Assembly: GCA_950295325.1 (NCBI GenBank)
Contig: OX485808.1
Span: 9,426,501-9,490,500, forward strand
Reading direction: 5' to 3'
DNA from: Polytrichum commune
Taxonomy: Eukaryota > Streptophyta > Polytrichopsida > Polytrichales > Polytrichaceae
Length of the DNA: 64,000 nucleotides
The notes beneath the pieces were generated by a model. That model was given only the letters and a program-made list of their open reading frames with translations, did no database searches and had not been told where the DNA came from. This document shows positions 26,976-53,566 of the stretch, piece by piece. Every line of letters begins with the position of its first letter. Position 1 is the stretch's first letter. The position numbers were made by a program, and so were the translations under genes.

Positions 26976-28500
26976 GAAAGATGGGCCTCCCCCAAATCAC
27001 ATTGGTGGGATGTTGGTGAGATACAAGGATGTATTCACCAATGTGTTGCCCAAAAAGTTACCGCCAAGGAATGAAAAATAACTTTGCTCAACGAGAGATT
27101 GAGTTCTTGAGGTATGTGGTGACAAAGGAAGTTGGTGGACGAACGTGAAGGATGTCAAGGCAATCCAAAAGGAGAATTGACCCTTGATTCAAAAAGGGCT
27201 TAGGTCATTTGTTGGCCTAGCCAACTACCACCACCACTTCATTCGAGAGTTTTTTAAGGTTGCTAGGACCTTATTCAACTTATTGAGGAAATGGCTATCC
27301 CAAGAGTGGGATGAGCCTTGTCACCAAGCCTTTGGGAAGCTCAAGAGCAAAGTTCCCTTCACAAGATGTGGTTAAGTTTCCGCGTTTTCATAAGCATTTT
27401 GAGGTGCACATGGAGACGAAGGACTTTATCATTGGCGGATGTTGATCCAAGATGGATAACCATTGCTTATGAGAGCATTAAACTCCATGGTTGTCGAACC
27501 TTGTCCGGCTTGTGCAAGAAATGGCTATCCCAAGAGTGGGATGAGCCGTGCCACCAAGCCATTGGGGAGCTTAAGAGCAAGTTGTCTTTGCCGCCCGTGC
27601 TCAAGCTTGCGGAGTTTGCCAAACCTTTTGAGGTGCATACGGGGGCGAGTCACTTTGCCATTGGCGGATGTTGATCCAAGATGGAGGACCATTGCATATG
27701 AGAGCAATAAGCTCAATGGTTGTTAAACCTTGTCCGGCTTGTGCAAGACATGGCTATCCCAAGAGTTGGATGAGCCGTGCCACCAAGTCCTTGAGGAGCT
27801 TAAGACGAAGTTCTCTTCGCCGCCCGTGCTCAAGTTCGCAGAGTTTGACATACCTTTTGAGGTGCATACGGGGGCGAGTGACTTTATCATTGGCGGATGT
27901 TGATATAAAAAAAAAGATGGCCATTGCATATGGGAGCATGAAGCTCGATGGTTGTCCGACCTTGTCCGACTTGTGAAAGAAATGGCTATCCCAAGAGTGG
28001 GACTAGCCTTGTCACCAAGTCTTTGAGGAGCTTAAGAGCAAGTTCTCTTCGCCGCCCGTGCTCAAGTTCGTGGAGTTTGACAAACCTTTTGAGGTGCATA
28101 CGGGGGCGAGTAATTTTGCCAATGATGAATTGTTAATGTTAGATGGATGGCCTTTGCATATGGGGGCTTGAGGCTCGATGGTTGTCATAGAAGACAACTA
28201 ACTCATGACAAAGAACTTCTTTGCCGTAGTGCATTGCTTGAAGATGTGGCGACATTATTTGGGGTCGCACAAAGCAAAGGTCTACATGGATAATGTGTCC
28301 TAAGGGTATTTTAACATATACAAGCGCAAGTGAGCGCCAAGTCATTGCGTTGGCATGATAGCTTGGCGCTTATGAAGGTGGATTTGATCCACAAACCGGA
28401 CCGTGGAAATGTGGTGCCGGATGCGCAAAGTAGACCGGAAGAGTTCCAAGCAATGATAACCATCCAAACCTTGTGGCTAATGTGTGCCGGCGAAGGAAAC
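26976..28500 (+). pseudogene. RT thumb and RNase H with four tandem units (element D)
   Basis: The RT start (YKDVFTNVLPKKLPPRNEK) joins QREIEFLRYVVTKEVGG directly, so the palm is deleted (junction about 27075-27095). Units of KWLSQEWDEPCHQ...FEVHTGASDF begin near 27288, 27520, 27749 and 27979. The RNase H middle (LTHDKELLC) and end (MKVDLIHKPDRGNVVPDAQSRPEE) follow. Confidence 0.78.
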
Positions 28501-30950: not shown

Positions 30951-31127
30951 AAATGAAGCGTAGGCATTGATGTGGACATCAATCTCCTTTAGTGGGGGAG
31001 AGACGCTAGTAGCACACTTAGCTTCGAGGCTAATTGCTCCACAACATTAACTTGTTCTTTGGCTTGAGGGAATAAAGTCCAAACTTTAGTGGTGCAAAGA
31101 GAAAAGTATGAGATGAGGTCCTAGTCT

Positions 31128-31156
31128 TAACACTATATTCGTTAAATTGAGACTTT
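31128..31156 (+). repeat. Left terminal inverted repeat of T1
   Basis: Begins TAACACTATATTCG and ends GAGACTTT. Exact reverse complement of 47324-47352. TAGTCTCAAATT at 31160-31171 repeats the GTCTCAA core just inside. Confidence 0.75.
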
Positions 31157-31660
31157 CTCTAGTCTCAAATTAATATATGGATCAAAGAACTTGAAGAGGC
31201 CCGAAACTATATTGTCAACAATCTCAATTATATTATATGTTCTAATATCCCAAATCTATGATGTGCGGACATAAGCACATATGGTAGAGCACTCGACACC
31301 AACTTCATCAACAAAAACACATTGGGTAGAGCACTTCAAACAAGTTTCACCCAAAAATATATATAAAATGATTTCTATTATTAGCATGTTCAATAGAATA
31401 TAGACATTGCAACATACAAAGTGCATGTAATAAATGCATGTTTCTTCATTCGAGAATATAGTCCCAAGCATAATAATAAGATGAACTTCAATTGCAGCTT
31501 GAAATATAGTAAATGGATATTCATCCAACTCCAAACAATATAGTATTCGTAAGTTCTACCCAAACTCTGCCCCAATTTTGAAGAGCACACATATGTGTAA
31601 TTTATATTGCTATAATTACGTATTAAACTATAATCATGCTAACACAATCCTACCAACTTC
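31157..31660 (-). other. AT-rich subterminal region of T1
   Basis: About 500 bp of AT-rich sequence between the left terminus and the stop codon of the transposase-like gene. GGTAGAGCAC occurs twice (about 31281 and 31324). It presumably includes the 3' end of that gene. Short open frames here look like chance. Confidence 0.4.
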
Positions 31661-34600
31661 TCATTCAACGTGGGTTGCTTCTTCTGCAATCCGAGCAAGG
31701 TTGTCTTTTGCAAAAGTTATGTACTTTTGAGGGATGGACACTGATCCACTATGGTGTTTCCGTGGTTTCCATGCTATGAATATGGAATCTGTATCTACCC
31801 AAGATGGACCGTGCTCAGAATCCACCTTCCACCGAAAGTTAGGGTTTGTATCCCAGCCTGTATAATGCCGAATCACATCTTCATTCCTTGCTGTCGGTCG
31901 ATAGTACTCCACTTGTATTTGTCGAAAATGAGGGCTGGAAGTTACAAAATTTGGATTGGACAAAGCTCTTGCCACCCACACTGGCTTCGCATATGTCTCG
32001 TCTCCAGGACGCAAAATGAGCATATAACCTTCATGACAATCCACTGCAATGCGGAAAGATGGTGGGGGACGACTACTAGCAGGCCCCACGTAATGGTCGT
32101 CCACATCAAACTCCTCTCGAACCTCTCCATTTCCCAAAAGACTAGGCTCTGAAGCTTGTACATCGACTCGTGTTTGTGGCCAAAATCCATGCCTCAAAGT
32201 ATGAGGGCTATCTTGGTGGAGGTCTGCCAAGGCGGCACGAACACGTGTCCAATAATGTATCCAACTCCCATAACGATGCCAACATGATCCGCCAACATCC
32301 GCTATTTTCAAACTCTCCCAATATTGTATGAAGCCTGATATACCTTTCAAAATATCCTCCAAATTCTTCATGGCTATTGGCTTACAAGGCCTAGGCTCCC
32401 CATCCGGTAACATGGTCTTTCCATCCGCATCCACGCGCCACACAAGAAGACCCTCCGGCGGGCTCCAGTCTTGTGACGTGCACAACAACTTGTATTGCAT
32501 GGCCGGGACACCATCGTCACGCATATAGAAGCGGAATTGTTGTGCCTTCGTATGCCCGATCAATCGGTGAGCTCCACTTCGAATATAAGGTTCTATAAAT
32601 GCCTTGAAGTCTGGCACCTCCTCAATCATATGGGGGATGACGGGAACGTTCTCCAAATCCATGTACGACTTCATCAATAATGGAATTGTAGGAAAATCCT
32701 CCTCCCGCAACTTCATGCTCCACCGCCCAAAAGATGCATCAATATCATCGTGCGTGTGGCCTACCAATAGGAAGGACACAAAAACCTCCTTGAAAATGCC
32801 TTTCGCAACCAACAACGACCAATATGCAAATACATATCTGCTTTTATTGTCCTTGGCACAATTGTCCAATTGGACACGCAAAGTTGGAGGCAACTTCTTG
32901 GCAATCACGGGTTCATTGGGTGGCTCGGGCAACGAATGCAAGCATACATCTTTTCCATCCAACACCGCTTCATATAAAGGTGTTGAACCCGTGTTCTCAA
33001 ATAACAATCCTGAAGAATAGGCTGGTGGTTTCTCTAAATCACGTAAAAGCCTTGCAAATGATCCTATCGTGTGGTTTGAATCCGCTGGATACAAATCAAG
33101 AGCATAATGGGCAAATTTGACATCACCGTGTCCATGTGCAATCATTCCTGCAATGCCAACCCAACGTGATTAGCATCTATGTATGAATAAACCATTATGA
33201 AGGAATCCATGTTCTCCAGTACATCACGGAATAAAATACAACAACATTTAGGGTATGTCATGACATTGTTTCGAAGTTCACCTGTAACCGATACAGGCAA
33301 CTTGAAAAACCCATCCGTGGCCTTGATTCGATTTGCAAAACATGGGGAGGCTGTTTTGGCATGGTCCATTTTGTCATGGATGACCGTAAGAACCTCCAAG
33401 GGCCTGGAGATGGACAAAGCTCTATTTGTGTAGTAATCATTACGGTGTGCCTCTTGCATGTTTACGTGCTTGAAATAGTTCAATTGATGCGCTGCATATG
33501 ACTCGGTGCCCATCGTGTGTGCATCCCGGAGGCGCTTCAACTTCTCGCAATTAGAGCACCTGGCAAATTTGTCCCCTCGTCTTTTTGTAATGTATTCGCT
33601 AAAGTTTTGTTTCTTGATTGCACTCAATTTTGACAATGAAATTGGCTCCAACCCAATCTTCTCGCCAACTGCATTAACGTCCAACAATATGTCTTTCCAT
33701 TTTGTGCCTGTGGGAAGAACTTTCTCCACAACCTTTTCACCGGTTGTGAGTGTGCGTGTTTTGTGCGGCATTGCATCGGCAAGAGGGACAATGATGGTTG
33801 CTAGAGTGGCCGTTGCTTGCCTTGTTGCTTCCCTAGGCTTCTTTAAACCCACGTTACCATGGTGACGGGACCGGCGGCCTTCCTTGGCATAAGCAGCTTG
33901 TCTATAAAAGTCCGATTTCGACACACCGTGAATGGTGTACCATGCCTTACAACACACGTCTATGCTTTCAATGGTGATGACCTTGCGACCCGTCCCATTC
34001 ACATGTATCGCCCTATGGACATCAAGTTTTCTTGTGGATCTTAGACGGAAATCTCCAAGCCACATTTCTTCGCGGATGACCTTCAATTTATCCCTTGGAA
34101 ACAATTGGCAACAACGATGCACACAACAATCCTTTGTGGCAACTTCTCTAATGGACTCCTCCCCGAGCAACCTTTGACGTTTACAATCAGTTGCAGACGG
34201 AGCAGGACGTGCCAATGTATCGTACTTTCTTTGACCCTTGCGCGGCCGCATGTTTGATTGCACCTCCTTTTCGATTTGCATGTGTCGTTGCTCATGTTCA
34301 CGCAAGCTAACTCCATCAATTGTGACATTCCTCAATGGCCACCTGCGGAGGGAGAACCTATGAGTGGGATCCACCTCGGAATGAACGACCGACTCCAATA
34401 TGACAACCCCAACGTCCTCAGTGCCAAGCGGGTTTTCATCAATGCAATCTTGCGGATGGGTGTTACGGCAAATCCCCTCCGCCACAACAACTCCACTATC
34501 GTTAAGAAGTATCACCTCCAAATTCACCCACGAAGCCCTTGAAAGTCCCGTACATTCAACAATGGGACACTGCGGTACGGAAGACGAAGGTAAATCCAAA

Positions 34601-34725
34601 TGATCTTCATCCGCACTGTCAGCCATAGTAGCCTCCCCGACAATGTCTAGGTCATCATCAGATGCAGATGGCCAAGTGGCCATGTCATCAGATGACCAAT
34701 CCCCTATTTCACTAAACCCATCCAT
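31661..34725 (-). pseudogene. Transposase-like protein with one frameshift
   Basis: A minus-strand gene of about 1020 codons in two overlapping frames (34725-33142 and 33145-31661). Residues MDGFSEIGDWSSDD look like the true start; the frame is open to 34818. Features in order: acidic N-terminus; Arg-rich segment; Cys/Trp region (CCVHRCCQLF, VCCKAWYTIHGVSKSDFYR); CxxC (FARCSNCEKL); then, in the second frame, RVQLDNCAKDNKSRYVFAYWSLLVAKGIF and SFLLVGHTHDDIDASFGRWSMKL. This QLDN...GHTHDDID pattern is what I remember of DUF7869-type proteins, which I take to be transposase-derived. The frames meet at LALQ/MIAHGHG, where one base is missing. A cryptic intron (TTGGCATTGCAG acceptor on the minus strand) is possible but less likely. 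It sits at the left end of T1, so it is the candidate transposase. Confidence 0.65.
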
Positions 34726-34917
34726 TCTGCCTACACACATGAACATTGAACATTGTCTTAAAATCACAAAAATTGTAGGTTCAAATCGAAGAACAAAAAA
34801 ACCATCATATATAAACAAAATTGCAAATACTCAGTGCTCATACAAGTTCATATGACTGCTATGCCATTGGGCTTGCAAAGGTTTCGGAAGGCCAGTGGCC
34901 ACACCGGCACCCAGATC

Positions 34918-35900
34918 CCAACCACACTTAGAGGCTGGGTTTGGGTCGAGCGACCCAAACCTTTTGGGAGGATGGGTTCAGGCTCAATACAGAGAGCACC
35001 CACACTTAGGCGCTGGATTTGGGTCGAGCGACCCAAACCTTCTGGCAGGATGGGTTTAGGCTCACTACAGACAGCATCCACACTTAGGGGCTGGGTTTGG
35101 GTCGAGCGACCCAAACCTTTTGGCAGAATGGGTTTTGGGTCACGACAGGGAGCACCCACACTTAGAGGGCTGGGTTTGGGTCGAGCGACCCAAACCTTTT
35201 TGCAGGATGGGTTCAGGCTCACAACAGTGAGCACCCACAGTGTAGGGCTAGGTTTGGGTCGATCGACCCAAACCATGAGGCAGGATGGGTTCAGGCTCAC
35301 AACAATGAGCACCCACACTGTAGGGCTGGGTTTGGGTCGATCGACCCAAACCATGAGGCAGGATGGGTTCAGGCTCACAACAGAGAGCACCCACACTGTA
35401 AGGCTGGGTTTGGGTCGACCGACCCAAACCATGAGGCAGGATGGGTTCAGGCTCACAACAGTGAGCACCCACACTGTAGGGCTGGGTTTGGGTCGATCGA
35501 CCCAAACCATGAGGCAGGATGGGTTCAGGCTCACAACAGTGAGCACCCACACTGTAGGGCTGGGTTTGGGTCGATCGACCCAAACCATGAGGCAGGATGG
35601 GTTCAGGCTCACAACAGAGAGCACCCACACTGTAAGGCTGGGTTTGGGTCGACCGACCCAAACCATGAGGCAGGATGGGTTCATGCTCACAACAGTGAGC
35701 ACCCACACTGTAGGGCTGGGTTTGGGTCGATCGACCCAAACCATGAGGCAGGATGGGTTCAGGCTCACAACAGTGAGCACCCACACTGTAGGGCTGGGTT
35801 TGGGTCGATCGACCCAAACCTTGAGGCAGGATGGGTTCTGGCTCAATACAGAGAGCACCCACACTGTAAGGCTGGGTTTGGGTCGACCGACCCAAACAAT
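34918..35900 (+). repeat. 78-bp minisatellite, 13 units, each with a palindrome
   Basis: Thirteen tandem units, exactly 78 bp apart from 35252 onward and slightly irregular before. Each unit holds the palindrome with arms GTTTGGGTCG/CGACCCAAAC, followed by AGGCAGGATGGGTTC and GAGCACCCACA. Palindromes start at 34939, 35018 (20-bp form), 35095, 35174, 35252, 35330, 35408, 35486, 35564, 35642, 35720, 35798 and 35876. The centre is AG in the first four, then AT or AC. Long open frames on both strands (372, 338 and 219 codons) are a by-product of a stop-free 78-bp unit, a multiple of 3. Confidence 0.9.
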
Positions 35901-37466
35901 TCCGCAAAATCCGCCTATTTATTCGGGTGATGCTCTATTAATCTATTTATAACCTATTTGGGACAACTGAACTCATAGATGCTTGTTGTAATTAGCTGCT
36001 CATGAATGGAAGCGTATACAAACCGTGTATTACAGCTCCAACTTAGAGAGCTTGCAGCAATCTCAGGATTGGGACATGAAAGAAAGAACCAGCATTTGGG
36101 GGGGTTGGGCTCTTTATACTACCCGCCTCCGCTTTGGGCATCCTCTTTGGATGCCTTTCCCACCTGGTCTCCTTTGGATGTTAATTCAAACCTTCTGACT
36201 CAATTTCCCGCTTCTTGTCAATAATAGAGAATGTATATTTAGCTTGGCTCTTCGTTGCCCCAACCACCAAATGAATAATTCAACATATATTTAAAGTTGT
36301 TACCACCCTAACTTGGTCAACACTATTCTTCAACTCTTTCATAATTAGTTTTATACATGAATACACCACCACCTTCCCTATTGCCATCTCCTTTCTCCTT
36401 TTATCATTGTTGTATATTTTTCTCACATCCTTACTAATACTAAATCCCTATATGTAACTTCCATATATCACCATAGTGGATATTTAGTGTTTGAGTTTAC
36501 ATTTAATGTTACTTACTCTCATAGGGTTAGTAATGGGAAGTGTATGTGTTCGTTTTAAGTGTATCAAACACTAACTATCATATAACTAAAAAGGATATAA
36601 AGGTTTTGATACACTACATATGAACGCATACACTGAATACCAATAACCCTATGACAATATGTAAGATTATATCTATTAAGGGGTTTTACTCTACTTGTAG
36701 TCAAACATTATGGTATATTTCAAACAATATATTGACAAAAGATGTGCATGTATTATAAAACTTCATATACTAAAAGTCACTAAATATAATAGTTAATGCT
36801 ATTATTTAGACTCTCACATGAGGACTTATATTTTGAAAACAAATAATTAATGCCATGACAAACTTGAATAATTTGGCCAACTTTCAATTTCTGCTAATTA
36901 AAAGAACATATGTTGTGTTGTAATGTGTGCACCCAATATTGCTTCATCCTCAAGACTCCAAGTGTGACAATAACCTAGTACCTATGTGGAAGTCATTAAT
37001 GGAACCCTAAACCACAAATGACATTTGGCACGTTCAATCTTCCAAGGATGTTTGAACCTATCGTGAAGTCCCTTGAACTCTACCAATGTGTGTGAGCAAA
37101 ACATGCAAAGTTCAAAAGGTATGTCCTCATATCATTCACAACATGAAATCTACTTTAAATTAATATATAATATTTCACTATTCCAAATAACATGTTAACA
37201 TGAACAACATCCTATCCATTATAATCTAGTTCTTATGCTTTTCTTACCAGGTGACAAGGTTATAGGTTAATATTGTATCACCTACTTGTGAGCACAATAT
37301 CGTTTATTTCCTTTAGTGCGTTCATTCGTGAAAAACCACACATCCATCTTTCACGTTTGTGAATTAGGATGTTGTGATGACAATATACATTTGTATTGGA
37401 AACTACAAGCACCAAGGCCCATGTCATTTGACCTATGTGCCATCCAGTTATGGTTTGTGTTGTTTA

Positions 37467-37500
37467 AGGTTTAGGGTTTAGGGTTTAGGGTTTAGGGTTC
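37467..37500 (+). repeat. Interstitial plant telomere repeat (TTTAGGG, about 4.5 units)
   Basis: Consecutive GGTTTAG units of the plant telomere type, the last unit changed to GGTTCAGG. Such short tracts occur inside plant chromosomes and upstream of some genes (telo boxes), so this does not mark a chromosome end. Confidence 0.85.
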
Positions 37501-38152
37501 AGGCATCATCAAACATCAAACTGAATGTTTAAATGACTTCATATGATATGTGAACTCCATGGGGTTGCAGTAGATACATTTGTAATCATTTGTTTCTCCC
37601 ATGTACTTCAAATGTGAACTTCTAAGTACATATATTAATGTTCACTCTAATGCTACTTGTTAGGGTATCCATTATAGACTAGAGCATTGTCCTCTACCAA
37701 CAACCATCATATAAATTACAATACATAATCCTAAACTGTTAACCATGTGAATGGTTACCATATTTATATTATTGCACCGTGTAATTGCCTTTGTGGATTG
37801 CAATATAATTATGACTTACTCCTCTTAGACTTTGTAACACTCTCATATGATTCCATAAATTACATTATTCATACACCAAAACGATAATGGCTACATTCAA
37901 CGATGTTATCAATTCCAACGGGTGATCATTCAATTGAACACCATTAAAATATGAGTTGGTGATGGTGTTAATTTTGTGGAATACCTTAGTCCACGTAGGT
38001 TTTTGAGTGGTATTGAATTGCCGCTAATGAATAGCGGGTTAGAAGGCCGGGGCCGGGCGGCCAAGAGAGGCGCCGGCCCTCCTATGTCCCGCACCTAGGG
38101 GCAAGGACAACCAGGAAGGCAATCTCCCTAGGGTGGCAGGTGTCAACACCAC

Positions 38153-38221
38153 AAGCCTCGCGGGCAACCACCTAAACCAAGGAGGTGTCGACACCTGGCA
38201 AGGTGTTGGCCCGCGAGGCTT
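38153..38221 (+). promoter_or_regulatory. Perfect 13-bp inverted repeat upstream of the plus-strand gene
   Basis: Arms AAGCCTCGCGGGC (38153-38165) and its exact complement (38209-38221) around a 43-bp spacer that itself contains the palindrome GGTGTCGACACC (38184-38195). GGTGTCAACACC occurs just upstream (about 38140). It lies in a GC-rich patch before the leader; a regulatory role is inference. Confidence 0.4.
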
Positions 38222-38279
38222 CTGAGCCGTTGATGGGCCCGGCGCAATCTAATGGCCCGGATTCGAGGGTTTAGGGTGA

Positions 38280-38881
38280 CCCCTTCCGCTCTCTCCTTCT
38301 CTCCCCTCCTCTTTTTCCTTTCTCTCTTTTTCTTCCTCTCTTCCTCCGCGCCAAGCGCCGCTCTTGGAAACGCCGCCGCCGCTTTCCATAGCGCCGCGCC
38401 AAGCGCTTCCTCTCGCACCTTTTGCTTTTGTCTTGGTCGCGCCGCTTCCCTTCATTCTTCTTTCTCCTTCATTCCTCTCCTCCTCTCTGATGCTTCTCCT
38501 CCTCTTCTCTCATTCTATTCCTCTTGTTATTGTCTTCCTCTTCTTATTCTCTCTTCTTGGTCCAGAGTGTTAGCTTTGAGTGAGTTCGGAGCGGTTTATT
38601 GTGTTGAACTCCTTACTTGTTTTGTAAAATTCATGCATGGAGTGATTTTAGGTTGAGTAGAAGTGAGCACGGTCGAGTGTGATAGAAAGGTAGAGGTCTT
38701 TCAAATTAGGCCTGAGTTTGCAAGAATCAGGGGGTTTGTGAGAAAGTTTTAGGGTGCTTGAGAGATTCATTGTGTTTCTGAGATCTTTGTGAGAGTTGTT
38801 CTTTAGTGCCACAACAGAGTTTCTGAGTCTGGTTGTAAGAAGCAGATTGTGAGAGCAGCTTTCAAGAGTTTGAAAGACAAG
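38280..38881 (+). other. Probable 5' untranslated exon of the multi-domain gene
   Basis: Starts with a long pyrimidine-rich tract (38285-38345) typical of plant leaders and ends at a good donor, GACAAG/GTAAGC (intron from 38882). The next acceptor, GGATTGCAG (ending 39967), is directly followed by the ATG at 39968. A 134-codon open frame at 38252-38656 is low-complexity Leu/Ser and I do not treat it as coding. Confidence 0.45.
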
Positions 38882-39967
38882 GTAAGCAATTTGCATCAGT
38901 GCACACAATTTGCATCATTCCCTTTAGGTTCCTGTTACATATACAATGCATAAGCATTGTATATGTTGCCCAAGCATTAAACATGCATCTGGAAACACAG
39001 TAGTTTGGGGAGACGACCCAAACTCATATTAAAATATAATAAATATTTGAATTGCAGCCTAAAATGAACTAAATGTTTGGGTCGTTCGACCCAAACATTG
39101 TAGCCTCTTGTTTGGGTCGAGCGACCCAAACATTGGAGCCTCATTATGTTTGGGTCGCTCGACCCAAACATTACAGGGAGAAGAACTAAACCACATTGTA
39201 AAATATAAAAGAACTTTAAAAATTAAGTAAATGTTTGGGTCGTTCGACCCAAACATTGCAGACTGAAATGACTGGGTTTGGGTACCTAAATTTGCAGCCT
39301 AACATGTTTGGGTCGCTCGACCCAAACATTACAGGGAGAAGAACTAAACCACATTGTAAAATATAAAAGAACTTCAAAAATTAAGTGAATGTTTGGGTCG
39401 TTCGACCCAAACATTGCAGTCTGAAATGATTGGGTTGAGCTACCTAAATTTGCAACCTAACATGTTTCGGTCGGTCGACCCAAACATTACAGGGAGAAGA
39501 ACTAAAGCACATTGTAAAATAAAAAAGAAATTTGAAAATTAAGTAATTGTTTGGGTCGTTCGACCCAAACATTGCAGTCTGAAATGAATGGGTTGAGCTA
39601 CCTAAATTTGCAGCCTAACATATTTGGGTCGCTCGACCCAAACATTACAAGGAGAAGAACTAAACCACATTGTAAAATATAAAAGAACTTCGAAAATTAA
39701 GTAATTGTTTGGGTCGTTCGACCCAAACATTGCAGTCTGAAATGAATGTGTTGAGATACCTAAATTTGCAGCCTCATCATGTTTGGGTCGCTCGACCCAA
39801 ACATTACAGGGTGACCACCTAAACCACACTTTAAAATCTAAAAGATCTTTTAAAACGACTTTGAAAATTAAGTAAATGTTTGGGTCAATCCTCCAAATGT
39901 TAAATGCACATTGCAATACTTTGGGTCGATCGACCGAAACTCACAGTTTCGATTTCTTGGATTGCAG
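38882..39967 (+). other. Leader intron with 13 palindrome copies
   Basis: Predicted GT...AG intron (1086 bp), AT-rich. Palindrome copies start at 39003 (degenerate), 39075, 39110, 39148, 39233, 39306, 39391, 39464 (one mismatch), 39549, 39623, 39707, 39781 and 39921 (one mismatch). From about 39148 they are carried in a ~155-bp tandem unit holding two palindromes, with centres CT and TT alternating, plus ACAGGGAGAAGAACTAAA. Confidence 0.55.
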
Positions 39968-41293
39968 ATGGCCCCTAAAAAGAGACCAGGTGAAAGGTGG
40001 TTCATGCTCGCGCCAGACCACCTTTGGCAGGAGTATGAAACTCCACAGGACGATTCTTACGTCCCAAAAGATGGCGTCGTTTTGGCATGGTCCGTTCAGG
40101 TGGTGAAGGCATCCATGTTCAAGCTGCTATTCGTGGTGAAGGTGGGGACCCACGAGCAGCACACCTGGGCAACGCTGACGGGATGGGAGGTTGCGTCCGT
40201 CCAGTCTCTCGGGGACTACGTAGACGTGATACTGGAGAACTCCGCCGTGCAGAACGTCCACATGTTCATGCACCAGTTCTCCGAGCCCTTCGACCCCCTG
40301 TACGCCAAGGAGACTTGCGTCGACCCTGAAACCATAAAACCGGAGGCCATATTCATAGATGGTAGTGTAACGAACACGAAGGTTGCGAGCAGGTTCACGA
40401 AGTTAAAACAGGCTATCACGGTTCTCAACAAGGCGCTGCAAAGCAAACCCAAGACGCAGCAGCCTGTGAGGCGGAAGGCAACGACGGAAGAAGGCGCAGG
40501 GTCCTCAAGACCACAAACTGTGAGGAAACCGCGGGCGGTCCCTGCAGACTCGAGACGGACGAGCACTACAACAACGCCGGCTGACAGCGAGACGCCAACG
40601 CCATCAGGAAGCCGTCAGACGACCCCTTCCAAGAGGGGAAGAGAGTCATCGGGGATGACTGACGAGCCTGTTTCCCCGGAGCTCCGGATGCCGAAGCCTG
40701 GCCAAGAGGTGGATGCAGGCGAAATACAAAAAATAAACAACAACTTCGAGACAAAATGCCTGCACTGCTTCTTCATGGGCAGGGACTTCAAATTCGAGGT
40801 CAACATTGCGCAGTGCCACCTTGCGCCACCAGAGAAGTGCGTCCGAGCCAAGGAGGACGCCTACGTCGACTGGATGGTCGCTCAAATCTTGGGCGGGCAG
40901 TTCAAGGACGACAGGCAGACAATTGTTGTCATGCCACAAGGGCTGAAAAGAATGCCGACGCCTGAGATGTGGCCGGCAATCTCTAAAGGAGACTTCTGGC
41001 TGATTGACGGGCAGCACAGTGTGGAGGCCTCGAAAAAAATCCAGCTGATGACCGAGTGGGACGACCCGAACAACCAGAAGGAGAAGCTAAAAGTTTGGAA
41101 GGCTTTGGTGGTTTGGTCGGACAACGAGACGGTCCTCAGCGACATCTCCAGGTTCTTCAACATGGGGAACAAAAAGAGGGCCTATCAGGCATCGTGGATC
41201 AGAAACATCATGGCCTCGAGGGAGGTGTGGGAGTTTTATGGAAGGCCTCCCAAGGAAAGGGAGAATGCTAAAGACAAGAACCCCAAATGGGAG
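39968..41293 (+). CDS. Exon 1: N-terminal domain, basic linker, ParB-like motif
   Basis: 442 residues. Residues 1-150 are a compact unknown domain (VLAWSVQVVKASMFKLLFVVKV, TWATLTGWEVASVQSL). Residues ~160-231 are a basic, Ser/Thr/Pro-rich linker. At ~260-292 are CLHCFF and CHLAPPEKC, perhaps a metal site. At ~330-350 is VVMPQGLKRMPTPEMWPAI followed by GDFWLIDGQHSVEASKKI, which resembles the ParB/DGQHR pattern (a dinucleotide-binding or nuclease-like fold) with Ser in place of Arg. The remainder (WSDNETVLSDISRFFNMGNKKR) also fits such proteins. The fold assignment is tentative. Confidence 0.6.
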
Positions 41294-44200
41294 GTGAGTA
41301 TGTTTGGGTCGATCGACCCAAACTCCTACATTGTTTTGTTGTCATCGCCAGGTTGATAGTTTGGGTCGGTCGACCCAAACTCTGAAATTATTTTGATATT
41401 GTCCCCAGGTTCATAGTTTGGGTCGGTCGACCCAAACTCTGAAATTGTTAAGATGTTTTCGCCAGGTTCATAGTTTGGGTCGTTCGACCCAAACTGCTGT
41501 TGCATTTGTTTTTCCATTATGTGTTGTCTAACATGTGCTAATGTCTTCCTGTGCAGGACTTCAAATATCAAATGATCAATAAATTCTCCTCGATCGACAA
41601 TGCTAGCCACAAGCAGAAAAAGTATAACGAGCTGAGAGGAGAAATCTATTTGATCACAGCGTCCGATTCCGTATGGGCAAGATGGAAGAGTGTTTTTGAA
41701 AAACACGAGACGGGGGACCTCATGGACCCCGACACCGGCATGCTCTTCAACCAGACTACGCGCTTCAAGCAAATGAAGCCTCTGGTGAGGGAGTTCTTCA
41801 GAGCGCTTCAAGGTCTCTCCGAGACAGAGATGGGAAAAGCGGCGTCCCACATCCTACACGTGGAGACGACGGCGAAGAGATGCTGGGTCCACCCTAAGAT
41901 CGTCTTCACCAAACCCAAGATCTTCGTCCCTTCATGCTACACAATGAAGGAATGGACGGAGAACAGGAAGAAGAAGACGACCATCGTCCAGGAGCTGCAC
42001 AAGCTTGTGCCAGAGAAGAAGCTCATCGTGGACGGAGAGGTCGACGAGGCGCACTGGAGGGCCTTCAAAGCCGAATATAAGTTTACCAGTGCGTCCATGG
42101 CGGCACTCATGAGGGAGGCGGGAGACGACTTCCTCAGATCCAAGCTCGTGAAGGGGGGGAGGAACCGGGCGCTTCCCGAACACTCAGTGCGGGCCTTCTC
42201 CAACTTCATAAAGGAGAAGAAGATCGTCAGTTTCGAAGGCGATGCGCAATTCAACATGGTCACTGTCGAACCTCTCAGGATCCAGGGTTGGCCGGGTTCT
42301 GAGTCAAGGAAGGCGATCAGGACTAGAGCCGGGGACCGCTTCCCCTTCGGAATGATAGACTTCAGGAACATCCCTGGAGCCTCATTCGAGGGGACTATGA
42401 GCACCCCTTTTTACGATCCTTTCTTGTCGAAGTTCGTGGACTACGGCAGCCCCAAATTCAGGGAGGTCGACGTCTGGCTCTGGATTGTCGAGGACAGAAG
42501 GGCAGAGCAGGTTTACGAGATCGTGCGCAAATTGCAGCCGGAGTATGCCGTCTCGAAATCTCACTACGTTGCTGCACCGGCGGAGGGGGCGTACAGCACG
42601 CTGAAAGACAAGAAGACGAAGATCGTCAACGTGCTGTGTTTGTACTTCGTGTACAAAGCTGAGCTGGTTAAGGTGCCAAACCATCCCATAGCCAGGATGG
42701 AAAAGCTCTTCCAAGTCCAAGAAGGGTTGGGTACCAGCAGGAGCTTATATGACGAGGCGAAGTACGCCAACTACCCCGCGGATGAGCTGCGCATGGAGTT
42801 CTACCTGCGGATGATGAGGACCCTCACGAAGAGAGGGGACTGCATCTTCAACGTTTTCGGGGGGTCCAAACCGATTTTTGCAGCCATTGTAAGCAGAAAA
42901 CCCAGAAGTCCCTATACGTTCGGTTTGGGTCGAACGACCCAAACTAGGGGCATGCACAGTTTGGGTCGAGCGACCCAAACTAGGGCCATGCATAGTTTGG
43001 GTCGAGCGACCCAAACTAACTATTCTTATTTTGTTTTGGAAGTCATTTTCCATTATATGTTCATTTGGTGTTACTAATAGTATTGATTTTGATTGTGCAG
43101 ATGTCTGGGTTGAACATCTACTCCTATGTGGAGGATGCCGATGTTCAATTCTACAGGACCCAAAAGGCGCTGGCCAAGAGAATGGACATCCTCGACTGGA
43201 TACCCGGATCCTACGTCGAAGAGATCGTCGAGGGGGGCGAGAATCCTTTGGATATTGCGAGGCGAATCAACCCGGGTGAATTCGCCATGCGGGCCCCCGT
43301 TCAATTGCCAGAGCCGCTCATCGGGTTGCATCCGGGCAATCCGTCTATGGGAGCAGGTGGCGAGGTTGGGGAGGAGGGGGAGGAAGACGAGGAGGAGGCG
43401 GAGGAGGAAGCAGAGAAAGTGGAGGGGGAGGTGGAGGAAGGGGCAACAGGATTCACTCAAGAATCCGAGGCCCCTCAGCGGAAGAAGGCCATGCGGCCTG
43501 CCACGCCGCAGAGCAGGCTGGTGCCCGCGTTGACGGTGGACGACGCCAAGGATATGTACTCGAGGGACGCGACGGCCACCTTCAGGGAGCGTAGAAGGAT
43601 GAAGGGGAAGAAGCTGTACGGGGACTATGCGGTGGAGGAGACGATCGCAATAAGCTCCGAGGACGAGGACGACATGGAACTCGCCAAGAAGCTGAGGTCT
43701 GATCCTGCCTCCCCCAGAGCGTTCGCCGGGAATGTGAGGGTGAAACCGGAGGTCCTCACCGTGGAGGAGGCGAACGCAAAAATGCTCCGAGACGAGGAGC
43801 AGCGTGTGCGACTGCAGAGGGCTGCCGCCGAGGAACCCTCTGTCCGCAACGAAGTCGCGGAGTTGAGGGCTCTCCTGTTGGAGCAGGAGCGGCAAAGGGC
43901 GATGTCCCAAACTCCGTCCCAAGCGGACCTCATCACGCAAGTGATCCAGGGCATGCTGGCGCAGGGATTGGTGATGGCTCCCCCGAGTTCATTCCCTCAC
44001 TTGCCCGCAGGCTTCCCTCCACAGGATATCCGCCCGCGGCCGGCGTTGGAGCATTCCTTCAGCTTCGCGGATTTGCTGCAGCCGCACGCCCGTCCTTACG
44101 CGCCTGTGCAGCAGGTGGATGATCCAAACCTTTGGCGCGTCCCCGGAGCGTCCAGCTCGTTGGCACCCCCCCCGCTCCGGCCTCCCATCCTCTTGCCCCC

Positions 44201-45894
44201 ACACCACCAGCGGGACGACCCCCACATGTTTGGGTCGTCCGACCCAAACAGTGCCGACGTTGCAGCGTCGCAGAGCGACCCTCGCCAAGCAGCAGGGTTT
44301 GGGTCGGCCGACCCAAACCCCGTCCCCCATCAGACCCCGGTCGACGAGCCTATGCTAGATGTTGAAGGCCCGCAAGGGCCTGGTGATACCTCTACTCCTA
44401 ACCCAGTCGATGAACCAATGCATGATGCGCATGCGGAGGTTGGGTTGGGACAAAGGCCTGACAGTCAGCCTTTGCAGGAGCAGGTTGCGGCTGACGGCGT
44501 CGTCGGAGGCGGCGGTGACAGAGGTGGGGCAGCGCACGCGATGCCGGCATCAACGTCGTCAAGGCACGACCAAGGCGAGGTAATGCACTGACCCCACTCA
44601 GTTTGGGTCGGTCGACCCAAACTTCCTGGGTCTTTGACTTCTTGCCTTGGTCGTGTCCCCTAGCTAGGACGAACTTAGGCCCCCCCCGGCACTCGCGCCC
44701 TTCGTCACCCCCAGCGACCATTCGTTCGTCCACCTACCCCCGGCTTTGCAACGAAGTCTTCATCACGGCGGCCCGTCTCTTCAATTTTTTCTAGATGTAG
44801 AAGTAGGCTAGTTTGAACGCATCGTTCAACGCGGCTCCCCCAATCAAGATGTACATAGAGCATTGTATATAATATAATCACCATTTTTGACTCCTATATA
44901 CTTGTATATTGTGTTTGAATGTATTTTGTATGCTCTTGTATCCCTTGTATCCCTTGTTGCACCCCCTCCAAAATGAATCAAATGCTTTTGTGTTTGCACC
45001 GAGAACGCTCGTTTCCTTAATGCTTCGTTTGGACATAGCATGACATAAGTCGCCCCCGTTTTCTCTCGCTCGTATCCGCAGGGCTCGGAGCATAGCGTAG
45101 CGGCTCCCCGACGCTCTTCCCCAAGGAGCGGAGAGGGCAGCGCGGCGGCGCCCCCGGTTTTACCCGCCCCGCCCCCGCTGCCGAAGAAACGATTCCTGGT
45201 GTTAGACCTGAACGGGGTCCTCGTCCAATGCGTTCATTGCCCTAGGACCCCCACGGTGCCCTTTTGCAAGCCCGAGGACGCTAATTACGACGGGCCGCCC
45301 ACGTTCATAAAGAGCAAACTAGTTCACCTCCGCCCGTGGCTTCGGACCTTCCTCCAGATCGCCCAACAACGATGGTGGGTGGTCGTCTGGAGCTCCATGA
45401 AGGCCGAGAACACCAATGCCGTCGTGGAGTTCATCTTCAAGGGCATCGAGCCCCCCTGCATGGTCCTAGCACAAGAAGCCTGTAGAATATTGTACACACC
45501 TGACGGCAAAGTCGTCAAAAAACCAAACAACCCCGCTTCCCCCCAATATCTCAAGGTCTTGAAGCCCATTTTTTGGGACCAACGTCCGTCCTTGATAGGC
45601 GTCCCCTACGACGTCCGCCCCACCCGCGAGAACACGCTCATGGTGGACGACAGCGCCGCAAAGAACATGTTGAACCCGACGGCCAACCTCATAGTTTGCC
45701 CTACATGGACGGTCGAGAAGGTCCGGGACCGATTTTTGTTAGACCTTAGTAAATACCTCCAGGCGCTCTGGGGTAGCGGGCTACCTGTAAACAATTTTGT
45801 TAGGAACAATCCGATAGGCGAGAGATACTTGGATCCACGAGACCATTTGTACAGAGAGTTGTTCTCACACGCGAAATTCAACAAGCTCATTTGA
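39968..45894 (+). CDS. Multi-domain protein: ParB-like region to FCP1-like phosphatase (four exons)
   Basis: Join 39968-41293, 41557-42888, 43101-44579, 45082-45894, about 1649 residues. Every junction is phase 0 with GT-AG borders (GAG/GTGAGT, ATT/GTAAGC, GAG/GTAATG; acceptors CTGTGCAG, TTGTGCAG, TATCCGCAG), and the reading stays open across all four. I chose ATG 39968 because it follows an acceptor-like TTGCAG and starts MAPKKRPGERW; an in-frame ATG at 39911 would translate palindrome sequence. I know no described protein with this order. Coding sequence is markedly GC-rich against AT-rich introns. It occupies the right half of T1. It could instead be two or three genes; only transcripts can settle that. 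Confidence 0.65.
41294..41556 (+). other. Intron with four palindromes at 57-bp spacing
   Basis: Donor GAG/GTGAGT, acceptor CTTCCTGTGCAG. Palindromes start at 41302, 41359, 41416 and 41473, exactly 57 bp apart, in a small tandem repeat that also carries CGCCAGGTT/CCCCAGGTT. Confidence 0.75.
41557..42888 (+). CDS. Exon 2: large domain of unknown function
   Basis: 444 residues, open throughout. It opens DFKYQMINKFSSIDNASHKQ. It has a charged central part (WTENRKKKTTIVQELHKLVPEKKL) and a C-terminal half with well-ordered alternation (FPFGMIDFRNIPGASFEGTM, VDVWLWIVEDRRAEQVYEIV, SKSHYVAAPAEGAYSTL, KIVNVLCLYFVYKAELVKVP), suggesting a folded enzyme-like domain. I recognise no family. The high third-position GC and lack of frame damage argue that it is or was under selection. 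Confidence 0.6.
42889..43100 (+). other. Intron with three palindromes at 36-bp spacing
   Basis: Donor ATT/GTAAGC, acceptor GATTGTGCAG before ATG 43101. Palindromes start at 42923, 42959 and 42995 (36 bp apart), with centres AA, AG and AG. Confidence 0.75.
43101..44579 (+). CDS. Exon 3: acidic, coiled and proline-rich region
   Basis: 493 residues starting MSGLNIYSYVEDADVQFYR. An almost pure Glu tract lies at ~92-115, a basic patch (FRERRRMKGKKLYGDY) at ~155-175, and an acidic EDEDDMEL stretch just after. A probable coiled coil (RVRLQRAAAEEPSVRNEVAELRALLLEQERQRA) lies at ~232-270, then a long Pro-rich tail. Two palindrome copies (44228-44249 and 44297-44318) are inside the coding sequence and read FGSSDPN and FGSADPN in the frame used. 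The tail looks disordered. Confidence 0.55.
44580..45081 (+). other. Intron with one palindrome
   Basis: Donor GAG/GTAATG, acceptor CGTATCCGCAG. One palindrome at 44601-44622 (centre GT). Without splicing, exon 3 would end after EVMH at 44591. Confidence 0.6.
45082..45894 (+). CDS. Exon 4: FCP1/NIF-like HAD phosphatase domain
   Basis: 270 residues to a TGA. After a ~38-residue Pro/Ser linker: FLVLDLNGVLV (residue 42 is the presumed nucleophile Asp; the general-acid Asp of D-x-D is Asn, as I recall from a plant subgroup of NIF-like proteins), then RPWLRTFL, VVVWSSM (HAD motif II), YLKVLKPIFW, and NTLMVDDSAAKNMLNP (motif IV). It ends VNNFVRNNPIGERYLDPRDHLYRELFSHAKFNKLI. This family dephosphorylates proteins such as the RNA polymerase II C-terminal domain. 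The Asn leaves activity uncertain. The paralogue at 51285-52052 shares every motif and the same ending. Confidence 0.8.
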   Translation, partial: GSEHSVAAPRRSSPRSGEGSAAAPPVLPAPPPLPKKRFLVLDLNGVLVQCVHCPRTPTVPFCKPEDANYDGPPTFIKSKLVHLRPWLRTFLQIAQQRWWVVVWSSMKAENTNAVVEFIFKGIEPPCMVLAQEACRILYTPDGKVVKKPNNPASPQYLKVLKPIFWDQRPSLIGVPYDVRPTRENTLMVDDSAAKNMLNPTANLIVCPTWTVEKVRDRFLLDLSKYLQALWGSGLPVNNFVRNNPIGERYLDPRDHLYRELFSHAKFNKLI

Positions 45895-46031
45895 GGCACT
45901 ATGTGTGTTTGTATGTGTGTGTGTGTGCCCGCCCACTTTGTGTAATATATGCTTCATATGTATCTTGATTTTCACGCGCTCTATCAAACCCTCCTCCCTT
46001 GGGTTTTGTTTTGTTTTAATTTTGGCTCCAG

Positions 46032-46385
46032 CGTTTGGATCCCTCGATTGACATCGTGAGCGAGTCAAACTTGGGGAGCTTCTTCTACGAGACTGTTTAC
46101 GACGCCGCGTCAACCATTGACTACTCCAAGGAGCCTATTGACGCCGGCGTCGTCGATAGCCCCCCACCCAAGCAAATCTTCCGGCGATCTGCGTCCCCGT
46201 CGCCGCTCAAGGGCATAAATCGCAAATGCGTCCGGACGTCCCCCTCTCGACCCGGCGGCCATATTACACCTCAACGGCGGCTGCGGATGGACGCTCGGCC
46301 AACGAAGAGTGGAACCCTTCCTATTCCTTTGCGGGACGCCTTGCCCCTCCTCGCCAACTCCGACGGGAACGCCCCCGGTGACAAG
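46032..46385 (+). CDS. Follow-on exon with DAAS-DYS motif (module 1)
   Basis: 118 residues after the acceptor TTTTGGCTCCAG (ending 46031), phase 0, to the donor GACAAG/GTGAAC. Content: DPSIDIVSESNLGSFFYETVYDAASTIDYSKEPIDAGVVDSPPPKQ, then SASPSPLKGINRKC. The paralogous exon at 52175-52699 shares DAAS-x-x-DYS, V-[DN]-SPPP and SPSPL. No in-frame ATG opens it, so it is probably reached by splicing. Since exon 4 has its own stop, this exon may join exon 3 directly, skipping the phosphatase. The function is unknown. Confidence 0.55.
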
Positions 46386-46514
46386 GTGAACCCCCCCCCC
46401 CCAACATGGTTAACCGCGCATTACAATCATCCCACACTTAAAAAATGAACGTGTGACACGTTTGGGTCTTCCTCCCTTAACTAACACGTGTGTTCTTGCA
46501 TTCACGCGTTGCAG

Positions 46515-46802
46515 GTTGCTCCCGCCCGTAAACCTATGCGGGATGATCCGTCCGTCGAGGTGGAGCGTTTCTACTCCATGACCAGAAATGCAAGACAGTC
46601 CACTTCATCGTATTCGAATTCTTCGTCGTATAATTCGGGCGGCCGACGGAATCCAAAATGTGTTATTGTTGGCTGTCACCCCAAGAATGGCTATAGTCGC
46701 GGGGCGGAGATTTTCAGGAATGTTGAAGCAATGCGAGCAAAAGAAGCCGCAGCAAAAGAAAAAGAGGCAAAAGAAAAAGAGGCACTCTCCGAGGCTAGAT
46801 AG
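46515..46802 (+). CDS. Last exon with NGYSRGAEIFR tail (module 1)
   Basis: 95 residues after the acceptor CACGCGTTGCAG, phase 0, to TAG. It is Ser-rich in the middle, then KNGYSRGAEIFRNVEAMRAKEAAAKEKEAKEKEA, a charged helix. The paralogue ends KNGYSRGPEIFRAMEAAKNKDLAAKKK. In both modules the exon begins with V-A after a Lys codon, so the splice site is conserved. Confidence 0.6.
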   Translation, partial: VAPARKPMRDDPSVEVERFYSMTRNARQSTSSYSNSSSYNSGGRRNPKCVIVGCHPKNGYSRGAEIFRNVEAMRAKEAAAKEKEAKEKEALSEAR

Positions 46803-47323
46803 GCCATAGTAGGCGTAGGGTTTTGGGCCATAGGCAAGAACATTTTGGGTCGCACTATCCAATGGATGTTTAGGTGTTAGCATGCTATGCATTTTACATG
46901 CCATACTTTGTATGTTCTATTTGCAATAATATAAGTGTCATATGATTTCCCCTTCCATATGGTCTAAGGTTTGGATTGCCCTACCTAAACCATCACAAAT
47001 ATGAGTTTGGAATATTTTGTATGCCATATTATATTGGTTAACATATTAACCCTTCAATAAGATCTATGGTTTGGATTGCCCTACCTAAACCATATTCGTA
47101 CAAGCTCTAATATTTTGTGTGCAATAATATGAATGTTTTAAGGTTTCCCCTTCAATTTGGTCTAAGGTTTGGGTTGCCCACCCTAAACCATCACAAATAT
47201 GAGTTATATATGGGGTTTTTTGGTCTAAACACCCGCTTCAAAGTGTTCGCATCTTACAACTTTCTCCAATATGTGTTCCATTTATCCTTGTTCTTATTTT
47301 TATGAATGTCTCAAAATGCCCAA
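46803..47323 (+). other. Right subterminal region of T1 with three ~100-bp repeats
   Basis: AT-rich, no gene. GGTTTGGATTGCCCTACC followed by TAAACC occurs at about 46969 and 47068 and, slightly changed, at about 47166, each time after an ATATGGTCTAAG- or AAGATCTATG-like lead. Each is itself a weak inverted repeat (GGTTT...AAACC). Repeated subterminal motifs are common binding sites of transposases, but that role is inference here. Confidence 0.45.
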
Positions 47324-47352
47324 AAAGTCTCAATTTAACGAATATAGTGTTA
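47324..47352 (-). repeat. Right terminal inverted repeat of T1
   Basis: Ends ...CGAATATAGTGTTA. Perfect complement of 31128-31156 over 29 bases. ATGTCTCAAAATG at 47309-47321 repeats the GTCTCAA core just inside. Confidence 0.75.
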
Positions 47353-50000
47353 GTGGCTCTTGTGTGTGAGGTTAAGGCCTTGGCCAAACATATTCGATTA
47401 GTGGCTCTTGTGTGTGAGGTTAAGGCCTTGGCCAAACATATCAGATTAGTGACTCTTGTGTGTGAGGTTAAGGCCTTTGGCCAAAAATTTGTGATTGTAG
47501 GCTCTTGTATATGAGGTTAAGGCCTTGGCCAAGAATTTGTGATTGTATCCTCTTCTATATGAGGTTAAGGGCTTGGCCAAAAATTTGTGATTGTAGGCTC
47601 TTGTATATGAGGTTAAGGCCTTGGCCAAATATTTCAGATTGTAGGCTCTTGTGTATGAGGTTAAGGCCTTGGCCACAAAATTTCAGATTGTATCCTCTTG
47701 TATGTGAGGTTAATGCATTGCCAAAAGTTTGTGATTGTTGGCTCTTGTGTGTGAGGTTAAGGACTTGGCCAAAAAATTGTGATTGTATCCTCTTCTATAT
47801 GAGGTTAAGGGCTTGGCCAAAAATTTGTGATTGTAGGCTCTTGTATATGAGGTTAAGGCCTTGGCCAAATATTTCAGATTGTAGGCTCTTGTGTATGAGG
47901 TTAAGGCCTTGGCCACAAAATTTCAGATTGTATCCTCTTGTATGTGAGGTTAATGCATTGCCAAAAGTTTGTGATTGTTGGCTCTTGTGTGTGAGGTTAA
48001 GGACTTGGCCAAAAAATTGTGATTGTATCCTCTTCTATATGAGGTTAAGGGCTTGGACAAAAATTTGTGATTGTAGGCTCTTGTATATGAGGTTAAGTCC
48101 TTGGCCAAACATATCACATTAGTGGCTGTTGTGTGTGAGGTTAAGGCCTTGGCCAAAAATTTCGGATTGTATCCTCTTGTATGTGATGTTAAGGCCTTGG
48201 GCAAAAATTTCAGATTGTTGGCTGTCGCAACCCTTGCTAGGTCCCTTAACAATCTTGCCAATTTTCGTTTCTAGCAAAGGTTACGAGCGCTAACCATTCG
48301 CATTCCGCCATGCTAATGGATAGCTCCTCTTACCCTGGACCAATAGTTCATAGGAGGGAACCAACCCTCCTACTTTGCTTTCGGGACTCACCCCTTAATC
48401 GGTAACCCATTTCCCCAATGTGGACTTCCATCCATGGAAGTCCAATCCTATGTTGATCATCGCGTTGCCGGAGCAACACTACAACAACCCGAAGCATACT
48501 AGGCAACTATGGCCTCACAATAGGCCAAAGCCCATGGAGGCCTTGCCGTTCGGCCTCGGGTGGGTGAGGCCACACCACCTCACCCATATAAGCCTCTAGG
48601 ACTTCACGCGGGGCCCCTACCCCACCGTCAACCAACCTCTTGTCTCTCTACCAAGAGTTGGGGCCAAGTGGACATTTTCCCTTAGCCGCTGGGCCTAGAA
48701 GCCCCCAGCAGCTTCAGACCATCATAACTTCCTTGTATGATGTCTGATTCCAGTAACCAACCACTCCATCTTCATCTACGCTTCACGTAGATGCCGATGG
48801 ACTGGTCACTTGCCCCATTCGGGCAAGTGGTGAGGAAGTTATGCCTGTTTGAACCTTGGCAGTCCCGGGAATCACTCCCAGGCACTGCTGTAGCAGGGCG
48901 CTGTCCCGGGACAGCGCCCCACTCAAATGGCCATAACTCCTAGCTCACACCTCGGATTGAGGTGTTCTTGAGCATTCTAGAAACACCACGCCATGAGCTA
49001 CGCATAGCTCATGGCCTTACCCTTGTGCCTCCTAGTCTTCGTGGATGGGAGGCGTTCCCAACGCCCGGGGACCTCACCCACACTAGGATCACTTGGGCCC
49101 TCTCACCAACGGCGCCACAAGTCCCGGGTGTCACTCCAGGGTCCCCCTTGTGCCCATGGTGTTTCGGGCACTCCTCATGGAGAGGTGCGCGACATTGGCT
49201 CTTGTGTGTGAGGTTAAGGCCTTGGCCAAAAATTTGTGATTGTAGGCTCTTGTATATGAGGTTAAGGCCTTGGCCACAAAATTTCAGATTGTATCCTCTT
49301 GTATGTGAGGTTAATGCATTGCCAAAAATTTGTGATTGTTGGCTCTTGTGTGTGAGGTTAAGGCCTTGGCCACAAAATTTCAGATTGTATCCTCTTGTAT
49401 GTGAGGTTAATGCATTGCCAAAAATTTGTGATTGTTGGCTCTTGTGTGTGAGGTTAAGGCCTTGGCCATAAATTTCAGATTGTAGCCTCTTGTATGTGAG
49501 GTTAAGGCCTTGGCCAAACATATCAGATTAGTGGCTCTTGTGTGTGAGGTTAAGGCCTTGGCCAAACATATCATATTAGTGGCTCTTGTGTGTGAGGTTA
49601 AGGCCTTGGCCAAAAATTTGTGATTGTAGGCTCTTGTATATGAGGTTGAGGCCTTGGCCAAGAATTTGTGATTGTTGGCTCTTGTGTGTGAGGTTAAGCC
49701 CTTGGCCAAAAATTTGTGATTGTATCCTCTTCTATATGAGGTTAAGGGCTTGGCCAAACATATCAGATTAGTGGCTCTTGTGTGTGAGGTTAAGGCCTTG
49801 GCCAAAAATTTCAGATTGTATCCTCTTGTATATGAGGTTAAGGCCTTGGCCAGAAAATTCAGATTGTTGGCTCTTGTGTGTGAGGTTAAGGCCTTGGCCA
49901 AAAATTTGTGATTGTAGGCTCTTGTATATGAGATTAAGGCCTTGGCCAAAAGTTTCAGATTGTATGCTCTTGTGTGTGAGGTTAAGGCTCTTGTGAATTT
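47350..50000 (+). repeat. ~48-bp minisatellite, interrupted by a solo LTR
   Basis: Units of GGCTCTTGTGTGTGAGG, then TTAAGGCCTTGGCCAAA and (T/A)TTTGTGATTGTA or ATATCAGATTAGT, 48-49 bp apart, from the T1 terminus to about 50000 with one 972-bp interruption. That leaves about 1.68 kb, roughly 34 units. Higher-order repeats of several units occur (47551-47760 and 47791-48000 are nearly identical). Open frames of up to 225 codons in either direction come from the stop-poor unit. Confidence 0.88.
48223..49194 (-). repeat. Solo LTR in the minisatellite
   Basis: 972 bp, TGTCGCAACCCTTGCTAGGTCC...GGTGCGCGACA, flanked by TTGGC (48218-48222 and 49195-49199). The start subtype matches element C2. Confidence 0.94.
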
Positions 50001-52052: not shown

Positions 52053-52174
52053 AACGCCTCCATGTCTTTGCTTTGTATCATGTGGTTCACATTTACTAAT
52101 GCTTGCTCCGTTTTTGGATGTCTTTTTGTTGTTGTTTTTTGTTGTTGTTGTGCTTGTGGTTGTTGCCCCCTTAG

Positions 52175-53564: not shown

Positions 53565-53566
53565 TG

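Follow-up and report, generated by a model that had tools for sequence, protein, structure and literature searches.

A probable 16-kb DNA transposon of Polytrichum commune with arrays of a 22-bp palindrome and a predicted ParB-methyltransferase-NIF gene

Sequence-specific anti-silencing by a transposon has been shown for the VANDAL/VANC system of Arabidopsis (PMC5735166, PMC10398659). The VANC21 motif forms arrays in introns of two genes, VANC21 and VANB21, and upstream of a third, VANA21 (PMC5735166). Giant transposons of algae, such as Sola1-1_Ec32 of Ectocarpus (21.5 kb) and its green and red algal relatives, are large DNA transposons; the accessory gene of Sola1-1_Ec32 lies on the strand opposite to the transposase and encodes a single protein with both a ParB-like and an N4/N6 methyltransferase-like domain, for which its authors suggested epigenetic self-modification (PMC12477816). 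Fungal DNA transposons with TET/JBP genes also carry DNA-modification-related genes, thought to aid escape from silencing (PMC12730594). Here we analyse a unit of about 16 kb (positions 31128-47352) in a 64,000-nucleotide stretch of Polytrichum commune DNA (assembly GCA_950295325.1, contig OX485808.1, positions 9,426,501 to 9,490,500, forward strand), called the window below and numbered from its first base. We read this unit as a large DNA transposon equipped with a system for sequence-specific self-recognition, likely an anti-silencing one, a reading that we hold somewhat more probable than its negation. Its layout is that of an earlier note made from the letters alone: a transposase-like gene reads leftward (34725-31661), a four-exon gene model, called gene 2, reads rightward (39968-45894), and repeat-rich DNA lies between.

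With the algal elements the unit shares terminal inverted repeats, a transposase-like gene and, on the opposite strand, a gene with ParB and methyltransferase domains (here by predicted fold) in one protein. Transposons carrying a ParB-methyltransferase gene are thus a kind already known. What differs is a NIF/FCP1-like domain in frame, changed methyltransferase and ParB residues, and arrays of a palindrome, none of which is mentioned for the algal elements in the excerpts of that report (PMC12477816). The TET/JBP transposons use another enzyme family, and palindrome arrays are unmentioned for them in the corresponding excerpts (PMC12730594). No NIF fusion in a transposon was described among the literature matches listed, and a search combining 'NLI interacting factor' with transposon, judged by titles and abstract starts, brought up no such element; the other distinguishing features were likewise undescribed among the matches listed, though palindrome arrays had no dedicated search, and an earlier description is possible.

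The palindrome, GTTTGGGTCG-NN-CGACCCAAAC (22 bp), is present in 31 perfect copies in the window, all at 34939-44622 and inside the unit only. When up to 3 mismatches were allowed, 35 sites were found, again all within the unit. The transposase-like gene has 13 of them upstream and gene 2 has 12; introns 1, 2 and 3 of gene 2 contain 4, 3 and 1, and the remaining 2 fall in the frame of its exon 3. This means that 33 of the 35 sites fall outside the exons, whose limits were provisional and slightly off the final ones, without altering any assignment. Upstream of the transposase-like gene, Tandem Repeats Finder (TRF) delimited an array of 12.5 copies of a 78-bp unit (34922-35897, one palindrome per unit, 12 perfect sites), and upstream of gene 2 an array of 5 copies of a 158-bp unit (39061-39855, two palindromes per unit; 9 perfect sites upstream of this gene). 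The introns of gene 2, all on the plus strand and bounded by GT..AG, hold 4 palindromes in 57-bp units (intron 1, 41294-41556), 3 in 36-bp units (intron 2, 42889-43100) and one at 44601 (intron 3, 44580-45081).

We compared half-sites with the rest of each repeat unit. In the 78-bp array (12 copies), 19 of 20 half-site columns were invariant versus 29 of 56 other columns; corresponding values were 38/40 versus 90/115 for the 158-bp array (4 aligned copies), 20/20 versus 23/35 for the 57-bp array (3 of 4 copies), and 20/20 versus 12/14 for the 36-bp array (2 of 3 copies). The two central bases were more variable than the half-sites. When one unit of each of the four arrays was compared on both strands, nothing longer than 8 bp was common to them except the palindrome. 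Such constancy of the half-sites is the pattern expected of a dimer sitting on two half-sites. The window is rich in tandem arrays (27 TRF rows), as would be the case if these arrays were neutral satellite expansions and the inverted repeat and both genes a dead remnant. We rejected plain satellites as an account of the spacer arrays because units that are otherwise unrelated share the palindrome and vary less in its half-sites than in the remainder; both genes are moreover open, and the neutral scenario appears highly improbable.

A second line of evidence came from relatives. Protein homolog searches covered exon 1, exon 2 and the NIF domain, and gave families of 46, 49 and 30 clusters, respectively. 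The predicted homolog proteins often run past the donor site into the intron, where the palindrome reads as the peptides WVxRPK, LGRxTQT or FGSxDPN. Among the 46 exon-1 homologs, 26 had a read-through of at least 10 residues; a loose motif, partly shaped after the tails had been seen, was present in 20 of these, and a strict motif, derived from the window palindrome alone, in 15. Read-through tails were found in 27 of the 49 exon-2 homologs, with the loose motif in 16 and the strict one in 13. The palindrome-peptide motif was absent from 24,870 residues of protein body, and shuffled tails gave on average 0.007 and 0.004 matches, never more than 1. Peptide variants, among them FGPTGPN and SGDRPK, suggest drift of the palindrome from subfamily to subfamily.

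CACTA elements have subterminal transposase-binding sites, and the palindromes could likewise be sites at which the transposase, or a helper, assembles the excision complex. Their confinement to the element would fit, as would three degenerate relatives about 160-385 bp from the right end, each within one of the 98-bp right subterminal repeats at 46922-47199 (GGTTTGG[AG]TTGCCC..CCTAAACC). The perfect copies, however, cluster in mid-element, at gene starts and in introns rather than at the ends, and their intron positions recur in relatives. We regard this role as unlikely. An anti-silencing self-recognition was preferred as mechanism because the arrangement of the arrays matches that of the VANC21 motif: in both cases the non-coding DNA of the element contains tandem arrays of a short motif, within accessory-gene introns and upstream of the transposase gene (PMC5735166, PMC10398659). 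The match is one of arrangement, as the VANC21 motif is 9 bp long, non-palindromic and in one orientation (PMC5735166), whereas the site here is a 22-bp palindrome; a MULE-type transposase, as in VANDAL, was not found either (Pfam lists only DUF7869).

The mechanism that we propose is as follows. The stretch 31128-47352 would be a large eukaryotic DNA transposon of the cut-and-paste kind, probably autonomous in the past, and its DUF7869 protein a DDE-type transposase cutting at the terminal repeats. With less assurance, we suppose that the palindromes in the element's own promoters and introns are occupied by a dimer of one of its proteins, most likely the ParB/methyltransferase/NIF protein, and that this binding may keep the element copy transcribed against host silencing, by analogy with VANC for VANDAL.

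The limits of the unit support the transposon part of this proposal. As the earlier note had claimed, a perfect inverted repeat of 29 bp frames it: the left arm (31128-31156, plus strand, TAACACTATATTCGTTAAATTGAGACTTT) is the exact reverse complement of the right arm (47324-47352, minus strand). Apart from the two arms, one on each strand, the window has no copy of their first 10 bases. Under a random-base model, 9.5e-9 inverted pairs of 29 bp are expected in 64 kb, and chance was rejected as their origin. Inverted repeats are frequent in the window (945 maximal exact inverted matches of at least 24 bp), because copies of a gypsy-type repeat are present in both orientations; the 29-bp arms lie outside these copies. 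The core AACACTATATTCG (13 bp) of the ends has a third occurrence at 53552-53564, in a second element described below. As the earlier note also says, each end has a GTCTCA word just inside it (31162 and 47308), and another is in the right arm at 47327; the left inner copy has the orientation opposite to the TGAGAC of the left arm. The unit's first base is fixed only to within a few bases, because the outermost T at 31128 is also the base of the flanking repeat at that position.

The earlier note had also hinted at a CACTA element, and this found no support. The CACTA-type transposase domain has its own Pfam family, and membership was rejected because Pfam assigned nothing but DUF7869 to the 976-aa protein of the left gene. 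CACTA is found 2-3 bases inside the 29-bp repeat, not at the extreme terminus. CACTA/EnSpm (CMC) elements have 5'-CAC..GTG-3' at the very terminus, with a target-site duplication of 3 bp (2-5 bp in the wider clade, PMC12730594).

The left gene is on the minus strand and was read as two exons (34725-33282 and 33147-31661), separated by a 134-bp intron (33148-33281) whose splice sites were picked by eye. Exon 1 is an open frame, and the spliced protein has 976 aa, no internal stop and one terminal stop. In a Pfam listing up to E 10, its sole match was PF25273 (DUF7869, E 3.3e-44; E 1.1e-42 with the open reading frame of exon 2, which holds the domain), and no CACTA-type or MULE-type transposase domain was found. 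DUF7869-type proteins have motifs known from RNase-H-like transposases (D..., DNC...N and GHT...D), and HDKMD, LDNCAKDNK and VGHTHDDID are present in this one. From its position, its motifs and the ends of the unit, this protein is probably the transposase. DUF7869 may be related to Sola. A literature search for DUF7869 found no paper, and searches of sequences with solved structures, made with the transposase, exon 2 and the NIF domain, gave no credible match.

Gene 2 (plus strand, 39968-45894, open) would encode 1,649 aa. Exon 1 (39968-41293) comprises an N-terminal beta domain and a domain that is a ParB N-domain fold according to the predicted structure, with the motif DGQHS. Exon 2 (41557-42888) encodes a helical region followed by what is, in the predicted structure, a permuted Rossmann N6/N4 DNA methyltransferase fold. 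Exon 3 (43101-44579) is an open frame whose length is a multiple of 3, with a GC content at third codon positions (GC3) of 0.72 and no Pfam match; it presumably holds the end of the methyltransferase-like domain, then a long acidic and proline-rich linker. Exon 4 (45082-45894) encodes the NIF/FCP1-like domain (PF03031, E 4.5e-15; 56.1 bits, cut-off 21.8) and ends in ...HAKFNKLI-stop. The multi-domain gene of the earlier note thus stands, with two predicted folds, ParB and methyltransferase, that it had missed, as it had the palindrome arrays at the starts of both genes and in introns. Downstream lies a tail gene, or exons (46020-46802, plus strand, as 46020-46448 and 46485-46802). Other searches added little: among the pieces of gene 2, Pfam matched the NIF domain and one weak, chance-level family; NCBIfam gave NIF relatives below the cut-off and one chance-level match; and a Pfam scan of every protein in the exon alignments gave weak matches, each in one or two members. 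A genome-contig search with exon 2 returned nothing, and viral-contig searches with the palindrome, the end pattern and the exon-1, exon-2 and transposase proteins returned no locus.

Active phosphatases of the NIF/FCP1 superfamily have a DxDx(T/V) active-site motif. Among the 30 NIF homologs we found DLNGVL in 12, DLNGVF in 1 and DLYGYL in 1, and the other 16, mostly fragments, showed no such motif; DLNGVL is in the NIF genes of both elements of the window. Of the FCP1-like phosphatase announced by the earlier note, the domain is therefore supported and the phosphatase function is doubtful, the motif being of DLNGVL type and not DxDx. In the methyltransferase-like domain, motif IV was placed by the strand order of the predicted model. 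Of the 49 homologs, 44 have the word D-[FYLW]-R, and an alignment of 23 sequences shows no variation at D268 or R270; a DPPY-like word is found in 1 of 49 (EPPY), the usual N6/N4 motif IV being [DNS]PP[YFW]. Motif I reads N[VI]FGGxK in 39 of 49, without the second glycine that is usual for methyltransferases. As for ParB, the box containing DGQHS was detected in 36 of the 46 homologs, and none has arginine at the box-II position, a placement that is our own assignment. This arginine is required for nucleotide binding (PMC12704722). Bacterial ParB-parS, Noc and KorB systems resemble the unit in their ParB fold (predicted here) and in many palindrome copies on their own DNA, and differ by this arginine (PMC12704722) and by the parS-type helix-turn-helix, which was not recognised here.

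Because signature residues are changed in all three domains, a role in binding and recruiting is favoured over catalysis, which we find doubtful for each of them. This bears on a self-marking model, in which the protein would be catalytically active, methylate adenine at N6 or cytosine at N4, and so mark its own transposon, to which it binds. The predicted methyltransferase fold of exon 2 speaks for it, together with the self-modification suggested for Sola1-1_Ec32 (PMC12477816), against which we set the replaced motif IV and the altered motif I; on balance self-marking seems to us a poor candidate. We tentatively propose a more specific form of the self-recognition reading, itself doubtful, in which a catalytically silent ParB-methyltransferase-NIF fusion would load on the palindrome arrays in a parS-like manner and the NIF domain would couple them to RNA polymerase II, each subfamily keeping its own copies active while protein and palindrome co-evolve between subfamilies.

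The right part of a second, diverged element (51279-53564, plus strand) was found in the window, with a NIF gene (51279-52052), a tail gene within 52175-53161 and a right end at 53552-53564. Its NIF gene is 44% identical to that of gene 2 over 239 residues. Two stretches of its tail gene (52253-52513 and 52907-53158) are 41-42% identical to the tail gene of the unit in tblastn, and the terminal 44 bp are 84% identical (47308-47351 versus 53521-53564). From the NIF stop to the right end the distance is about 1.5 kb in both elements. Two diverged elements thus combine a NIF gene with this type of end, which supports the large DNA transposon that the earlier note had seen in the unit. It also bears on whether inverted ends captured unrelated host genes, in a pack-type or composite unit whose gene set would be accidental. 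NIF-type genes are ordinary plant host genes, and GC3 differs between gene 2 (0.71-0.74) and the transposase (0.46), as capture would predict. An accidental set is at odds with the presence, in the second element, of related NIF and tail genes about as far from an end of this type, and with the large families of exon homologs (46, 49 and 30 clusters), which have palindromes in the same introns; we think capture very unlikely.

Several observations weigh against a self-recognising transposon. In the window we saw one complete copy of the element. No target-site duplication is readable, because the left flank is the gypsy-type repeat and the right flank an array of 48-bp units. The ParB, methyltransferase, linker and transposase parts have no match elsewhere in the window and hence none in the second element, which is either cut on its left or devoid of them; these parts may therefore not be obligatory. 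The joining of the four exons into one protein is predicted from open frames and splice sites. The exon-2 model had no Foldseek match at E ≤0.001, and the ParB model revealed neither a DNA-binding part nor a helix-turn-helix of parS type. Two perfect palindromes lie within the exon 3 frame (44228 and 44297). Finally, the homologs are bare metagenome proteins without genomic context, and the loose motif owes part of its shape to the tails it was then counted in.

If the element does counteract silencing in this way, the anti-silencing trick would have arisen independently, with unrelated proteins and a defined 22-bp palindrome as site; in the more specific, parS-like form that we hold doubtful, a eukaryotic transposon would have turned a prokaryote-type ParB fold into a self-recognition system. 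The palindrome would also be a candidate kind of DNA target for the ParB-methyltransferase accessory genes of algae, whose role is so far only suggested.

On the left, the flanking repeat was read as gypsy-type from its copy at 3115-3888, for which a match to the Tf2-1-like SH3 family was obtained (E 2.8e-9), whereas scans of three further pieces gave none. Its last stretch before the unit is 31115-31128; it stops exactly at the left end, at 31127 or 31128, where five other copies of the window continue. The partner half of the interrupted repeat was not found in the 64-kb window, and the left end has likely been rearranged. On the right, the 48-bp array runs towards the second element and is broken by a solo long terminal repeat. 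The array, between both elements, covers 47355-48223 and 49197-49993, with AAGGCCTT and TTGGCCAA in its consensus unit, and is possibly the second element's counterpart of the palindrome arrays. The solo long terminal repeat (48223-49194, TG...CA) is bordered by a 5-bp duplication, TTGGC, at 48218-48222 and 49195-49199.

Some other features of the window were recorded. Inside the unit, 37462-37503 consists of six GTTTAGG copies (94% matches), a telomere-like repeat of the plant TTTAGGG type. Such a run, the intron structure and the repeats would all suit a genome of the green lineage. Between the 48-bp array and the second NIF gene, an open reading frame at 50116-50340 has a weak F-box match (E 0.021, below the cut-off). 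To the right of the second element, open reading frames at 53561-54743 and 55267-56037 may encode other transposon proteins; they have no significant Pfam match. Tandem arrays with a unit of 220-229 bp are found in five places (298-966, 4719-5380, 20207-20867, 27288-28187 and 58333-59449), and frames of the first resemble, by eye, the reverse-transcriptase/RNase H part of a gypsy-type pol.

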